Shown here in pieces: positions 3,603 to 9,390 of a DNA stretch of 64,000 nt. The notes beneath the pieces were generated by a model. That model was not told the DNA's origin. It did not search any database and worked only from the letters and a program-made list of their open reading frames with translations. This DNA is from Salinivibrio sp. ES.052 (GTDB lineage Bacteria > Pseudomonadota > Gammaproteobacteria > Enterobacterales > Vibrionaceae). Position 1 is the first letter of the stretch, and every line of letters begins with the position of its first letter. The position numbers were made by a program, and so were the translations under genes. The stretch spans positions 776,251-840,250 of the forward strand of contig NZ_FSRI01000001.1 in assembly GCF_900141775.1 (NCBI RefSeq), read 5' to 3'.

Positions 3603-3921
3603 AGCACAAATATCCAGCAGCGTGCGGAGGAGATTAAAGTGGTGAAAATTATACCAACCTTAATCACACTTTGTTGTACAAATTTGGTGAAATAAAGATT
3701 AATTTTGCGTAAAAAAACACCAGTTGCACGTTTTTTGGAAGCATCCACAAAAAATGGCAGCCCCGACTGGCTTTTTAGACCCAACCAACACGCCCGCAAG
3801 ATCTCGGCCAAATCCTCGAAGCAATCTCACAGAATTAGCGCTAGCTAACATTTTGGACATTAGGGAATGAAAACGTTATCACGCCTCTGTTAGGCTAATC
3901 CTTACTACAAAAAGGGAAATG

Positions 3922-3985
3922 GCCTATCGGGTGCCCAAAACCGGCGGGCGGTAGCGTGGGGGGCAGTGAATCCGCCATGATAGGC
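3922..3985. repeat. Inverted repeat enclosing a GC-rich core
   Basis: GCCTATC at 3922-3928 pairs perfectly with GATAGGC at 3979-3985, and inside it GGCGG (about 3947-3951) can pair with CCGCC (3972-3976). The local base composition is unlike the AT-rich DNA on either side. It could be a structured RNA, a recombination site remnant or a protein-binding site. No known riboswitch pattern was recognised. Confidence 0.4.
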
Positions 3986-4030
3986 AGCATGCACACTTTC
4001 GTAGAGAAGGAAACTATTTGATTGGTTGAA

Positions 4031-4063
4031 AATTTTCATATCAAATATTTAAGTATGAAAATT
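4031..4063. repeat. Perfect 10-bp inverted repeat upstream of the first accessory gene
   Basis: AATTTTCATA at 4031-4040 and TATGAAAATT at 4054-4063 are exact reverse complements separated by 13 nt. They sit about 70-100 nt before the preferred start at 4131, so an operator or a 5' transcript hairpin is possible. The second arm overlaps an ATG (4055) that opens an 18-codon frame ending at 4111. Confidence 0.45.
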
Positions 4064-4130
4064 ATTTTTGCCGGTTATAACAAACCGAGTGTTCCTACTA
4101 ATACATTGTGATCCAGTAAATGAGGGAGTT

Positions 4131-5414
4131 ATGCAAACAATCAGATCAAATCTGACTCGATTAAAAAGACTAGCCGAGAAAAATCTCCCAGAAGGAGATG
4201 ATATATTTGGTTACTCCGGTATTAGTAAGTCTCTTATTATTGACTTCATTGACCATTCTTATGAATTAAGCTACGAGTTAGTCGATTTAGAACCACATTT
4301 TGAAATAACCGTATTAAAGCGGAAAGTTTCTAAATTAATAAGTGTTTGCAAGGACTATTTAAACGATGATGCAAAGGGTTTTTTGAAAGAAAAGAAATTT
4401 GATGCCTTTATTGATAGCCTGACTGAAATTAGAGATCAAGTGAGATTTACCTATATCGTTGTAGTTGACAAATCACTTCGAAAAGAAGCCGCTGCGGCAG
4501 AAATAAAAGAAAACTATGAGAGACTGAAGAAATCATATGAGGAGTTCGAAGATAGATTTAGAACGGTTGATCAATCCTTGCAAAGTGTAACTGAAAATCA
4601 AGAAAAAATTGAAGAAGTTAAGAACGAGCTTTTAGTTCTATTGGAAACCTCTAGAGGGAACTCAGATGATATATCCTCGTTTAGAGTAGAATGTGAGTCA
4701 AATAGCGAGTCAATTGAAAAGCACGAAGACGAAGCTAGATCGAAAAAGGAATTTTTAATTGAATCGTCCGAAAAGCTAAATAATCTAATAACAAAGTCTC
4801 AAGACTTGAAATCTGAATCTGACTCTATGTTGGGTACGATAAATTCCCTTTCGGAAGAGCTTAAAGAGCAGATCCAGTTGAATTCAGAAAAGCAAAAAGA
4901 GATACAGGATACACTAGGAAATGCTAATAGAGTTGGAATGGCAGGTTCCTTTAAGACTAGAAAAGAAGAGTTGAATAAACCTATTTTAATGTGGGGAGTG
5001 ATATTCGCCCTAGCGATAGTGTTGATATTTAGTGTGGCTGTTTACTTTATTACTCCAGCATTAAAATCAGATGGAGATATTGCTTATTGGAGTATTTTCA
5101 CTAAGTTGTTATTAGCTACTCCTTTTGTTTGGTTGGCTTGGATGAGTGCGAAACAATACGGTTATCTCTCTCGTATTAGAGAAGATTACGCTTACAAATA
5201 CGCATCTGCTATGGCTTTTGAGGGATATAAGAAGCATGCTATAGAAGTAGAAGATGGATTACTTCATGAGCTTCTATCAATTTCCATCGCAAACCTCTCT
5301 CAAAATCCAATTAGACTTTTTCAGTCAAAAGACAATCATGCGAGCCCTATTAACGAATTGGTAAAAGAAGTTTTTGGAAGGGTATCTAAAAGTAATAGTG
5401 ATAAGAATAGGTAG
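4131..5414 (+). CDS. Coiled-coil protein with two C-terminal membrane segments, function unknown
   Basis: I do not recognise this family with certainty. The start at ATG 4131 is chosen because GAGGGAG lies 2 nt upstream; an upstream TTG at 4068 has no good ribosome site. The 427-residue product has a helical N-terminal part (1-110), a long Glu/Lys/Ser-rich coiled coil (about 110-280), hydrophobic segments at about 285-308 and 320-340, and a conserved-looking cytoplasmic tail with YLSRIREDYAYKYA and QNPIRLF. This suggests a membrane-anchored protein with a large cytoplasmic rod. The gene is AT-rich compared with the core genes and lies beside cassette-type DNA, so horizontal acquisition is likely. 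A role in phage or plasmid defence is possible but not shown. Confidence 0.75.
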   Translation: MQTIRSNLTRLKRLAEKNLPEGDDIFGYSGISKSLIIDFIDHSYELSYELVDLEPHFEITVLKRKVSKLISVCKDYLNDDAKGFLKEKKFDAFIDSLTEIRDQVRFTYIVVVDKSLRKEAAAAEIKENYERLKKSYEEFEDRFRTVDQSLQSVTENQEKIEEVKNELLVLLETSRGNSDDISSFRVECESNSESIEKHEDEARSKKEFLIESSEKLNNLITKSQDLKSESDSMLGTINSLSEELKEQIQLNSEKQKEIQDTLGNANRVGMAGSFKTRKEELNKPILMWGVIFALAIVLIFSVAVYFITPALKSDGDIAYWSIFTKLLLATPFVWLAWMSAKQYGYLSRIREDYAYKYASAMAFEGYKKHAIEVEDGLLHELLSISIANLSQNPIRLFQSKDNHASPINELVKEVFGRVSKSNSDKNR

Positions 5415-5656
5415 AAAGTCTACTAATCCACTCTACTTGCGCTTCATTTTAGTGGCTAGAGTATGAGAAATAAGCCGTTTTTTGTGAATTTTAGGGCACT
5501 GCTTTGACAGTGTTTGTAGTAGGATTTGGTCATCTGCATCGTTTGCATCACTATTGAATCTGTCTGTGTCGGGTGTGTTTTTGGAGAAATTCATTAGATC
5601 AGAGGGAGCGATGTGCATCTACCTCATTGTTTCAAAAAAGATTTATGAGGGGGTTC

Positions 5657-5676
5657 GCTAGAGCGCGGAGTTAGCT
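5657..5676 (+). other. Right half of an integron attC-like site
   Basis: The segment AGAGCGCGGAGTTA (5660-5673) matches the right arm of the complete attC at 6242-6255 at 13 of 14 positions. It ends in a G|TTAGC crossover-type site (G5670, TT5671-5672). No matching left arm with an AAC box was found in 5415-5656, so the site that should close the upstream cassette is incomplete or too diverged to see. Confidence 0.6.
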
Positions 5677-5696
5677 TACATAATGAGGTCCAGAGT

Positions 5697-5888
5697 ATGA
5701 AGTTTTTGATTGATTATGAATGTAGAAATGGAAATGGTGTTTCGAATGAACAATTTGAGATCGAGTTGGATCATGAGCCTAATATGATGGACTCCGATTT
5801 AATTCTTGAGGCACTGAAAGATTCTACGAAATATCACCAAGAGGGTATTGGTGGTGTAAGTATTACTTCAATATCCTTGATTTTGTAA
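5697..5888 (+). CDS. Small cassette-borne hypothetical protein (63 aa)
   Basis: I do not recognise this 63-residue acidic protein. It starts 26 nt after the cassette edge, with GAGG at 5685-5688 as a likely ribosome site, and has no signal peptide or membrane segment. The sequence alternates acidic and aliphatic residues and ends in a hydrophobic VSITSISLIL tail, which suggests a small alpha/beta fold. It is the first gene of the 5671-6252 cassette and is followed 40 nt later by a second small gene. Cassette position and AT-rich codons indicate transfer. No function is proposed. Confidence 0.6.
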   Translation: MKFLIDYECRNGNGVSNEQFEIELDHEPNMMDSDLILEALKDSTKYHQEGIGGVSITSISLIL

Positions 5889-5928
5889 CAAGCTCTGTAT
5901 CTAAAATGTCTACTGATGGAATATTATT

Positions 5929-6192
5929 ATGATTTGCAATAAACCACATAGGTATAACCAAGATTTTGAATTACTGCCAGATGACCAGAGCAAATTTAAT
6001 GGACGTCATAAGTGCGTTGGTTGCGCTTATGAGCGAGGATTTGAATTAGGACTCGCTAGAGCGCAAACATTGAGCATAGATTACTCAACGTTACCTGACA
6101 GTCAAGCCGGAGCAGGAAGGCATAAAAGTGTGCAGGCCGCTTTTGCTGACGGGTATCGCCAAGGAATTTTAGCTTCGTACGATGTAAGCTAA
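5929..6192 (+). CDS. Small cassette-borne protein with an internal duplication (87 aa)
   Basis: The product is made of two copies of one module. Residues about 15-43 contain LPDDQ....GRHK..G.A...G...G and residues about 55-81 contain LPDSQ....GRHK.VQ.A...G...G. The first copy has a CxxC pair (CVGC) that the second lacks, so metal binding would involve only one half. I know of no function for this arrangement. The stop codon TAA (6190-6192) lies inside the R'' box of the attC, a hallmark of cassette genes. There is no signal peptide or membrane segment. The ATG at 5929 follows a GATGGA sequence that may serve as ribosome site. Confidence 0.65.
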   Translation: MICNKPHRYNQDFELLPDDQSKFNGRHKCVGCAYERGFELGLARAQTLSIDYSTLPDSQAGAGRHKSVQAAFADGYRQGILASYDVS

Positions 6193-6258
6193 CAAAGCGC
6201 TGCTGGCGGACAATTTTTCCGCTGCACACCAAAATTGCCGCAGAGCGCGGCGTTACAT
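6184..6258 (+). other. Complete attC-type recombination site
   Basis: This is an imperfect palindrome with the layout of an integron attC. The left arm has an AAC box (6191-6193), GCGCT (6197-6201), GCGG (6206-6209) and CAATTTT (6211-6217). The right arm has AAAATTG (6231-6237), CCGC (6238-6241), AGCGC (6244-6248) and the crossover G|TT at 6252/6253. Each left block pairs with its right partner, and unpaired bases between the blocks are as expected for the folded single strand recognised by IntI. The site closes the 582-bp cassette. Confidence 0.75.
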
Positions 6259-6315
6259 GCTCTAAGTGCTTCACGCTTGTTGCCTCATATTGAATAAAAA
6301 GGAATAAGATCTTAC

Positions 6316-9300
6316 ATGATGGACAGAAATTACAATCGAGGGTCAGAGTGGCGAAAATGGGATCTTCATATTCATACTCCAGCTTCTTTCCATTGGGAGG
6401 GCCCACAATTTACCTCTAACGCAGATTCACCTGAGAACACCCAGATAGTTGATGAAATGATTCATGCATTAAATGCTGCCGAGCCAGCGGTGTTCGCCAT
6501 CATGGATTATTGGACGTTTGATGGGTGGTTCGCATTAAAACGCCGTTTAGCTCAACCAGAAGCCCCAAGACTAGAAAAGACAGTTTTCCCTGGTATTGAG
6601 TTACGGTTGGTTGCTCCTATGGAAGGACGGCTTAATGCTCATGTTTTGTTCTCAGATAAAATTGATGATCAGGAGCTAAGGGATTTTCGTGCTGCGTTGC
6701 ATGTTGCGTTAATCAATAGACCACTTTCCGATTTCTCACTGAAATCTCTTGCTCGCACTGTAGGAGAGGACTTTTTACGTACCAGAGGCTTCGATAAAAA
6801 TGAAGTAGATCAGAGTGATGAGGTTGCGTTAAAAGCAGGTTCAACTGTCGCGGAAATAACATGCGAGAGCTACAAACAGGCGCTTCGCAGTGTGCCTAAC
6901 GGACTGGCTCTTGGCTTTATGCCATTTAATACCAACGATGGAATAGCCGCTGTAGAATGGCAGGAACACTACGCTTATGTGCTCGAGTTGTTCGACACAT
7001 CACCAATTTTTGAAACGAGGACCCCTGCTCTGTGGGCTGCTTTTGCTGGGATTGAGACTGAGGAAAACAAGAATTGGATAAGTAACTTTCAATACGCATT
7101 GGGAAATATACCTAGGCTTGCCGTATCGGGGAGCGACGCACATAGGTTCACTGGTGAGCTAGGGAAATGCAACCGTCGCGGTTACGGTGACTACCCTTCA
7201 GATAAAACCACGTGGATCAAAGCCAATCCAACATTTGAGGGGTTAAAGCAAGCCATTAAAGAGCCAGCTAAACGCTCATTTATCGGGTCAACGCCTCCGA
7301 AGTGTTTATTGGTTAAAAATAACCGAAGCCAATTTATTGATAAACTGGAGGTTATAAAGAACAGTGATTCGCCGACTACTGACCCATGGCTTGATGGAAC
7401 AGAACTGGCCCTAAATTACGACATGGTTGCCATTATCGGGAATAAAGGGAGTGGTAAAAGTGCGCTCGCAGATATTACCGCACTACTTGGAAACTCAAAG
7501 CAAAGCCATCACTTTTCTTTCTTAAAAGAAAATCGTTTTAGAGGAAAAACCGGCGAGCCTGCCAAAAATTTCAAGGCAAAGATTACTTGGGTTGATGAGC
7601 AAGAGCTAGAAAAAAGTCTCAACGAAAATCCTGCTACTGAAAATGTCGAGCTCGTTAAATATATCCCTCAGGGCCATTTTGAAGAGCTCTGTAACTCCCA
7701 TGTTTCGGGCAAATCAAGCGCTTTTGAAAATGAATTGAGGTCTGTGATTTTCTCTCATGCCGATGAGTCAATTCGTTTAGGTGCTTATGATTTCGATCAA
7801 CTTATTGAGCAACAAGAAAGCTCATTAAGAAGCAATTTAGAAAGCCTACGTAGCGAATTACATAAGATTAACTGGCAGATAGAGTCAGTTGATAACCAGA
7901 TGACCGACGAGGTGCGTAAAGGTATAGAAGAGCAGCTAAATCAAAAGAAAAGGTTGCTTGAAGAACATTTAAAGAATCGACCTCCTGAAGTTCCTGAGCC
8001 AACAGATAAGCTTTCCCCTGAACAGCAAAAAGCAGCAGAAAATTTGGCTTCTATTTCTACAGAGCTTGAAGATATAAAAAATAAGCGAAAAGAATATCAA
8101 GAAGAAGTTGCCAATCTTGCTGCCAAACGAAAGGCATGTAAAAGCATCAAAGAAGGACTTGAGGTTGTTGAACGAGCGGTTAAGCAGTTTAGTTCAGAGT
8201 TTGATATCGACCTTGAGCTGTTAGGTTTAGAGGTTAGCAATCTCATTAAATTCCAAGTCGATAAACATTCAATATCTGACATCGAAAAGTCGACATCTGC
8301 TCGCGATGTTGAGTTAAAAGCCGGCATCCAAAAACTAGAAGCTGATGAAAAGGCACTTGAAAACAAGAGAGCGTCTTTAAATGCTCAATTAAATGCTCCT
8401 CAACAATCACACCAGAAATATTTGGATCAACTAAAACTTTGGGAAGAAAGAAAATTTGAATTAGAGGGCAGTAAAGAGGCACCTGATTCTCTTGAAGGTC
8501 TCAAGAATAGAAAGGAACAATTAGAGGAGCTTCCTATACGAAGAGATAGGCTGAAAGATGAAAGAATATTGCTAGCAGGAAGAGTTTATGACATCTTGGA
8601 AGAACAAAGAAAGAAACGCGAAGCTCTATTTGAACCTGTTCAGTCACTCATTCAAAATAATTCTCTGATACGTGATGAGTATAAATTACAGTTTAGTGCG
8701 GAGCTGAGCACAACTATTGATCAGGTATCAACGAAGCTATTCTCCTTTATAAAGCAAGCATCTGGTGAGTTTAGGGGAGAGTCGGAGAGTTTGTCTGTGA
8801 TAAAGGATTTAATTGATAGGCATAACTTTGACGATAAAGAATCAGTGCTTTCGTTTGTATCTGAGTTAAATAATAAACTTGAAGCAGCATCAAAAAATGA
8901 AGCTGGAATTGCATCAATCTTACGCAAAGATCGAGATGCACATGAGGTATATAATTTTATTTTTAGCTTGGAATACCTTGAACCAAGATACACTTTGACG
9001 TTTCAGGATGCTCAAATTGAGCAGCTTTCCCCGGGTCAGCGAGGAGCATTGCTTCTTATATTCTATTTGCTTGTAGATAAAGGCAATAACCCAATAATTC
9101 TAGATCAGCCGGAAGAGAATCTAGACAATGAAACAGTTGTTAGCTTGCTTGTTCCAGTGTTAACAGAGGCAAAACAAAAGCGGCAGATAATCATGGTAAC
9201 ACATAACCCAAACCTTGCGGTTGTATGTGATGCTGAGCAAATAATTCACTGTGAATTTGATCGGAGAAATGGACACAGGATCACATATACCCCGGGGGCG

Positions 9301-9390
9301 ATTGAATGCAGTGTAATGAAAAATAGAGTTGTTGATGTGCTAGAAGGAACGATGCCTGCATTTGATAACAGAAGGGTTAAGTATCACTAA
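6316..9390 (+). CDS. TrlF-type PHP-domain / ABC-ATPase protein
   Basis: This 1024-residue protein joins an N-terminal PHP (metal phosphoesterase-like) domain to a split SMC/RecN-like ABC ATPase. PHP motifs are DLHIHTP (16-22) and SGSDAH near residue 275. The Walker A GNKGSGKS is at 375-382, a long coiled coil spans about 480-820, the ABC signature LSPGQ is at 904-908, the Walker B IILDQPEEN at 927-935, and the switch histidine is H963 in VTHN. The order agrees with what databases call the TrlF family of AAA-like ATPases; many PHP-ATPase fusions of this sort lie in mobile or defence regions. It begins 63 nt after a cassette crossover site, and an R''-type box follows the stop. A nuclease or DNA-damage sensor role is inference. 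Confidence 0.8.
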   Translation: MMDRNYNRGSEWRKWDLHIHTPASFHWEGPQFTSNADSPENTQIVDEMIHALNAAEPAVFAIMDYWTFDGWFALKRRLAQPEAPRLEKTVFPGIELRLVAPMEGRLNAHVLFSDKIDDQELRDFRAALHVALINRPLSDFSLKSLARTVGEDFLRTRGFDKNEVDQSDEVALKAGSTVAEITCESYKQALRSVPNGLALGFMPFNTNDGIAAVEWQEHYAYVLELFDTSPIFETRTPALWAAFAGIETEENKNWISNFQYALGNIPRLAVSGSDAHRFTGELGKCNRRGYGDYPSDKTTWIKANPTFEGLKQAIKEPAKRSFIGSTPPKCLLVKNNRSQFIDKLEVIKNSDSPTTDPWLDGTELALNYDMVAIIGNKGSGKSALADITALLGNSKQSHHFSFLKENRFRGKTGEPAKNFKAKITWVDEQELEKSLNENPATENVELVKYIPQGHFEELCNSHVSGKSSAFENELRSVIFSHADESIRLGAYDFDQLIEQQESSLRSNLESLRSELHKINWQIESVDNQMTDEVRKGIEEQLNQKKRLLEEHLKNRPPEVPEPTDKLSPEQQKAAENLASISTELEDIKNKRKEYQEEVANLAAKRKACKSIKEGLEVVERAVKQFSSEFDIDLELLGLEVSNLIKFQVDKHSISDIEKSTSARDVELKAGIQKLEADEKALENKRASLNAQLNAPQQSHQKYLDQLKLWEERKFELEGSKEAPDSLEGLKNRKEQLEELPIRRDRLKDERILLAGRVYDILEEQRKKREALFEPVQSLIQNNSLIRDEYKLQFSAELSTTIDQVSTKLFSFIKQASGEFRGESESLSVIKDLIDRHNFDDKESVLSFVSELNNKLEAASKNEAGIASILRKDRDAHEVYNFIFSLEYLEPRYTLTFQDAQIEQLSPGQRGALLLIFYLLVDKGNNPIILDQPEENLDNETVVSLLVPVLTEAKQKRQIIMVTHNPNLAVVCDAEQIIHCEFDRRNGHRITYTPGAIECSVMKNRVVDVLEGTMPAFDNRRVKYH

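Follow-up and report, generated by a model that had tools for sequence, protein, structure and literature searches.

The sedentary chromosomal integrons of Vibrio have one attI site beside the integrase gene intI and, behind it, a long array of cassettes. According to the accessible text of one large survey, integrase-less clusters of attC sites (CALINs) are about as frequent as integrons and were proposed to be degraded integrons; the same source states that the detection of attI by IntegronFinder 2 is confined to class 1 (PMC9024848). In Xanthomonas, CALINs are described at seven conserved loci and contrasted with insertion at attG sites (PMC12444791), and in V. cholerae an attIA site placed on a plasmid is described as being used by IntIA (PMC8191803). 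The accessible text of PMC7923331 contains no mention of Salinivibrio, and our search of titles and abstract openings in the open-licence literature found no report of dispersed attI sites or of Salinivibrio integrons. Here we analyse a locus of Salinivibrio within a window of 64 kb (the whole stretch of DNA that was analysed). We regard it as quite probable that it is the decayed outpost of a distributed integron, in which solo attI sites away from intI are served in trans by one integrase. The features of the cassette region, in window coordinates, are:

4109 to 5670, + strand: putative first cassette with a broken attC, placed between the attI and the half attC
5447 to 5661, - strand: remnant of an IS4-type element that retains one end and the beginning of the transposase gene; identity to the five further copies found in the genus is 81-90%
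5662 to 5676, + strand: right half of the first cassette's attC, adjoining the IS end, with G|TT at 5670|5671 and the right arm as in the full attC
5671 to 6252, + strand: second cassette, 582 bp, with ORFs at 5697-5888 (63 aa) and 5929-6192 (87 aa)
6184 to 6258, + strand: complete attC site (model R1 over 6187-6258, 81 bits, E 1.3e-20)
6253 to 9390, + strand: stretch with a TrlF-family ATPase gene at 6316-9390, directly after the attC (NCBIfam NF045780, 684 bits, cut-off 350)

An earlier note, made from the letters alone, had seen in the second cassette an integron cassette with cassette-type ends and no integrase nearby, and this was borne out. The two G|TT sites delimit the unit as described: the attC right arms AGAGCGCGGAGTTA (5660-5673) and AGAGCGCGGCGTTA (6242-6255) are equal at 13 of 14 positions, and the 5' edge GTTAGCTTAC (5670-5679) is the exact ten-base reverse complement of the R'' box GTAAGCTAAC (6184-6193), so that the circle carries a complete attC. 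The folded-palindrome layout that had been read from the sequence (GCGCT/AGCGC, GCGG/CCGC, CAATTTT/AAAATTG) is complete according to R1, a covariance model made from 20 attC sites of other loci, the window's site being outside the training set, and using the RNAalifold structure. The site thus combines the conserved fold with the terminal G|TT of an integron gene cassette, lies far above background, and has no second match in the whole 64 kb window even at E 10. Several training sites were recruited by BLAST similarity to the window attC (88-93% identical), so that the site is matched as a near relative of genuine attCs and not as a distant one. In the training alignment, 86 cells changed on both sides of a pair against 30 in shuffles (none of 500 shuffles reached as high), and covariation dropped from 0.48 to 0.06-0.14 when the structure was slid, in a test that is favoured by related sequences and by a structure derived from their own consensus. 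The folding of the single-stranded site, which the earlier note had put forward as a check, is unremarkable (z of -1.4 for the bottom strand and -2.0 for the top strand of 6180-6258, relative to shuffles); energy by itself is weak evidence here, and it is the covariance model that is decisive. The attC and its cassette are real. The search for other copies of the 582 bp unit came back empty: among 61 genomes there was none, and outside the window only attC-sized matches and one of 186 bp (70%) to the second ORF were found. Proteins 40-64% identical to the 87 aa one are encoded in 11 plasmid records from nine genera. An Rfam scan of the window gave nothing at gathering score, and no tRNA genes were found in it.

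The left edge of the cassette needs some revision. Its G|TT at 5670/5671 stands, and the AG at 5660-5661, which had been counted in the right arm, is the end of an IS remnant, the attC beginning at 5662. This remnant of 215 bases abuts AGCGCGGA|G|TTAGC, an attC right half cut at G|TT, so the left G|TT is the leftover of a preceding cassette's attC and not a lone target site. The gene of this first cassette lies at about 4131-5414 (the ORF, 4068-5414, starts with TTG, and the ATG at 4131 was picked by eye) and encodes a coiled-coil/membrane protein with a weak match to LmuB (PADLOC, E 1.2e-5) and no Pfam family. A long copy of the insertion sequence, at locus L079, encodes a 410 aa transposase with a DDE_Tnp_1 domain; from ends of this kind and from the Pfam domain, we take the element to be IS4-type. 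Two other readings of the repeat at 5447-5661 were rejected, i.e., a giant attC loop, given the transposase in L079, and an IS1111-type element, given that this transposase is IS4-type. In four of the six copies (L078, L079, L080 and the one in the window) the element abuts an attC-like right core, the long copy (about 1300-2632 of L079) seems to lie inside an attC, and the element may target attC sites. On the other side of the second cassette, R1 found no further attC after the TrlF gene in the 64 kb window, this gene being no more than a candidate cassette. Its product is also similar, more weakly, to the anti-phage protein Ppl, which its C-terminal part resembles. The gene may serve in defence and have arrived with the array; a defence role for the cargo is a guess.

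Upstream of the first cassette, next to ybjL and 1.6 kb from the second cassette, the window holds two further features:

3823 to 4024, + strand: left part of a solo-attI module (start set by pattern; alignable to same-locus relatives to about 3960)
4025 to 4111, + strand: decayed attI (R2, 25.3 bits, E 1e-6; R3, 19.3 bits, E 8.8e-5)

R2 is an attI model from 20 sites, 13 of them at loci without intI, and R3 was made from seven intI-linked sites only; neither has another match in the 64 kb window. The site is weak, with 25 bits in R2 and 19 in R3 against 50-95 and 32-115 for the other 50 sites described below, and a per-genome E of 0.005 (R3) against at most 3.5e-7. The equivalent of G|TT at 4108|4109 reads G|TG, leaving no intact G|TT, and this copy of the module is shorter than others, whose homology reaches about 400-445 bp before G|TT. 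A motif at 3974-4005, once considered a lone intergenic repeat, is part of the module. The identity of the site becomes clear in the eight Salinivibrio genomes (G000-G007, G000 being that of the window). In seven of them the ybjL locus carries an attI followed by differing sequences; the remaining one, G003, falls outside the ybjL alignment, with only short matches elsewhere. Across the six relatives the block is conserved, with small differences, up to ...CTAATACAATG|TTA and divergent beyond, the window having a degraded version, and the same block is found upstream of intI in Salinivibrio. All six have attC downstream of this attI, two of these being weak (25 and 29 bits). The earlier note had left the choice between a CALIN and a lone cassette captured at a non-integron site. 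The latter is disfavoured, because seven of the eight genomes have an integrase-less attI platform at this position, and the former fits the remains but does not explain them. By the default of IntegronFinder 2, a CALIN has two attC: the window has one complete and one half attC and falls short of this, and the orthologous ybjL locus of G006, with three, qualifies. As to a complete integron, the decayed attI does head the array, and no functional intI was found beside it.

Sites of this type are dispersed throughout the genus. R3 identified at least 51 attI sites in the eight genomes (at least 8, 8, 8, 7, 7, 6, 4 and 3 per genome), and the same 51 top the R2 list. At E 0.01, R3 gave nothing beyond them among the candidates scored, and three additional weak R2 matches (E 0.01-0.05) had no support from R3. 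Since 150 of about 450-1150 first-look candidates were scored per genome, the counts of attI and attC are lower bounds. Two of the eight sites of G000, at C3:6466-6567 and, near the end of C6, at C6:2035114-2035215, are identical, as are the 2.5 kb compared after them (100%); this is probably an assembly overlap, in which case the two are one site, or a real duplication. Together with plasmid pM138.1 and the TGB10 replicon from PLSDB, this makes 53 loci, of which stretches of up to 2.5 kb on the left and 4 kb on the right (less at contig ends) were fetched. Within these stretches, intI-like sequence occurs at eight loci and attC downstream on the same strand at 43, and all 85 attC matches are downstream and co-oriented (three belong to L203, a copy of L171). 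At the other ten loci no attC was seen, six of them having at least 4 kb of room. The genus-wide picture is similar: among the 96 attC matches listed, 76 follow an attI within 20 kb (52 a solo one, 24 an intI-linked one) and none is on its wrong side or strand. The other 20 have no attI within 20 kb and all come from G003, G005, G006 and G007, whose assemblies consist of some 40 to 270 contigs; in G000, G001, G002 and G004, an attI accounts for every attC match.

The left flanks of the 53 sites fall into groups of 12, 8, 7, 7, 7, 4 and 3 plus five singletons, and all intI-linked sites but one (seven of eight) belong to the largest group. Homology between the modules of ybjL and of groups 1, 4, 5 and 6, which lie at unrelated loci, extends to about 400-445 bp upstream of G|TT; intI loci and group 2 modules share only the last ~276-289 bp, and a few others as little as ~150 bp. 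The left part of the module is also found at places without an attI match, as follows:

G003:C114, G003:C172, G002:C2:487464, G004:C14, G006:C89 and G000 C5:492536-493627 (group 1 flank): module left part without attI match

In a plasmid collection, all five records matching an attI module are from Salinivibrio. The 74 kb plasmid pM138.1 of S. costicola carries a solo module (L204:6478-6576) that is preceded by metal transporter and ParD genes and followed by one annotated as an ADP-ribosyltransferase-domain protein; no attC was found at this module. A consensus scan of one better-kept module (L162) for a promoter (Pc) found none.

What follows G|TT is far less widely shared than what precedes it. 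Among 94 pairs of solo sites with the same flank, none has 100 bp in common within the 300 bp that follow G|TT, and the left side is aligned over at least 250 bp in 71; by the same measures, 21 intI-linked pairs all share the left side and never the right. Flank groups were split by hand for this comparison, L181 and L184 being assigned to group 5, and it leaves out L185, L199 and L200 (flank not resolved), L203 (the copy of L171) and the singletons L106 and L190; for one small group, "same flank" is safer than "orthologous", because L160 and L163 lie in the same genome. Some cassettes recur. In G001, the intI array on contig C1 and a solo attI on C2, the other large contig, have an identical 855 bp cassette in common, which at the solo attI stands first (the match spans 859 bp with 0 mismatches, because the next core opens with the same four bases), and a 520 bp cassette of the array recurs, at 98.5% over 525 bp, on another solo platform of this genome. 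G007 has, as the first cassette at one of its solo attIs, the third one of this intI array (434 bp, 98.8%), with a clean G|TT at the left end only, as the attC of the G001 copy is cut just before G|TT by other sequence. A start immediately behind G|TT is what insertion by IntI would be expected to leave. In this genus, the attI similarity, the recurrence of the module, the one-way arrays and the sharing of cassettes, at cassette ends, between the intI array and solo platforms of relatives are, like the attC of the window, directly established.

The genomes differ in the state of their integrase gene. G001 and G002 each have a native intI of full length, and G006 has a full-length but different one (45.6% identical). 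In G000, where the earlier note had advised looking for the gene, a remnant is indeed present 0.5 Mb from the window locus; nothing in this genome is above the family cut-off. The remnant's middle part, corresponding to residues 92 to 245 of the G001 protein, is missing, as it is from a second copy in G002 and one copy in G004, and the window array cannot now move unless an integrase arrives. This deletion, from about residue 92 to 245, is alike in L165 (G000), L154 (G002) and L157 (G004), which suggests one old loss. The other G004 copy and the genes of G003, G005 and G007 were found only in pieces, some near contig ends, so part of this fragmentation may be due to assembly. In the array of the G000 remnant (L003), two repeat copies of ~250 bp were seen by eye, at 580-840 and 2105-2350, the second following the start of a transposase gene that is presumably IS110-like.

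From these data we infer the action of the integrase in trans, the order of decay and the way in which the module spread. The process would have involved 1) a short module ending in attI, without integrase gene, placed at several chromosomal positions and on a plasmid; 2) one integrase, encoded elsewhere in the genome, inserting circular cassettes in trans at these solo attIs (attI x attC); 3) the growth of a short array at each outpost, the one at ybjL in G000 gathering two cassettes, 4109-5670 and 5671-6252; 4) the destruction of half of the first attC by the IS4-type element; and 5) the decay of the attI and the loss of the middle of the intI gene 0.5 Mb away, after which the array would be fixed. 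Extended to the genus, the reading is that the intI-less module spread to six recurrent flank groups and a plasmid, all filled in trans by one integrase, such that integrase-less arrays would be built as outposts and would not only be wrecks, with the same design possible in another genus of Vibrionaceae and in a distant gammaproteobacterial MAG. We hold this broader reading to be likely, with somewhat less assurance than the one for the window.

A more conventional explanation would be an ordinary CALIN produced by decay in place: a complete integron at ybjL would have lost its integrase, the attI and the cassettes being left behind. The intI of G000 has itself decayed, by internal deletion, and for some solo modules the homology to one another extends no further than that to intI loci. 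Yet no intI similarity was found at the ybjL locus of seven genomes, in the stretches fetched, and the left part common to the modules of ybjL and of groups 1, 4, 5 and 6, at unrelated positions, is absent from intI loci and therefore points to the spread of an intI-less form. We thus find decay in place unlikely. Homologous recombination anchored in the conserved modules or flanks could also produce arrays that differ from genome to genome, independently of any integrase acting at solo attIs. In BLAST pieces, the modules are about 65-94% identical to one another, and several longer downstream pieces are common within and between groups, some of them probably insertion sequences. Recombination of this kind accounts poorly for common cassettes that start exactly after G|TT, two of three ending at the next G|TT, among neighbours that differ, or for a cassette that is identical on two contigs of a single genome, and we judge it quite improbable. 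The least credible option, which we consider very improbable, is that an IntI put the cassette into a chance attG-type site of the chromosome near ybjL. IntI1 is described as using attG sites in genomes (PMC12901181, PMC12444791), but an attG is neither attI nor attC, and the site 1.6 kb upstream is an attI homologue, the only one in 64 kb, with attC following attI at the same locus in the six other genomes. A distributed integron, with the window as one of its decayed outposts, remains the explanation that we favour.

Similar sites exist outside Salinivibrio. In genus g7 of Vibrionaceae there are seven attI-core matches in G013 and four in G022, one of the latter beside intI (L252), and dispersal is therefore not peculiar to Salinivibrio. 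As a control, the same-family genome G034, the single one tested in this way, has a single copy of its own attI; the same attI query gave no match in 15 of the 17 other genomes, not even at their own intI loci. Two of the g7 matches away from intI keep G|TT; in G013, L251 is flanked on both sides by attC of the array in which it lies, and L253 has one weak attC, upstream only. The gammaproteobacterial MAG RIFCSPLOWO2_02_FULL_57_10 (L148:448-1923) contains the Salinivibrio attI core without a mismatch. Two co-oriented attC matches follow it (50 and 18 bits), and a third, of 25 bits, lies upstream; the 8 kb fetched of this MAG contained no similarity to the G001 integrase.

If the distributed integron is confirmed, CALINs gain another, testable origin, with one integrase and many entry points, and cassettes would be spread over more than one replicon and many expression contexts. 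Searches for attI, which current software omits outside class 1, would then be needed to understand CALINs. Compared with known systems, that of Salinivibrio resembles the sedentary chromosomal integrons of Vibrio in the family of bacteria, in a similar attC type and in an integrase of the same family, and differs from them in having at least 3-8 attIs per genome and short arrays. It resembles CALINs in having attC cassettes without an adjoining intI, whereas a recognisable attI module, recurring at many loci, heads its clusters. The CALINs of Xanthomonas are likewise at several fixed chromosomal loci, common to the species and apart from intI; the accessible text reports no attI there (PMC12444791), and in Salinivibrio it is the attI that explains the fixed positions. 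Insertions at attG, as described in the sources cited above, similarly place cassettes away from the integron, at sites that, unlike those of Salinivibrio, are not attI homologues. The delta-attI-type cassettes of mobile integrons also have attI sequence away from its usual place, but these are described as attI fragments that replace attC in class 1 and 2 arrays (PMC12901181), whereas the Salinivibrio module heads separate arrays. The parts are thus known, and their combination, one integrase with many attI outposts, is, as far as our literature searches reach, a new arrangement of the integron.
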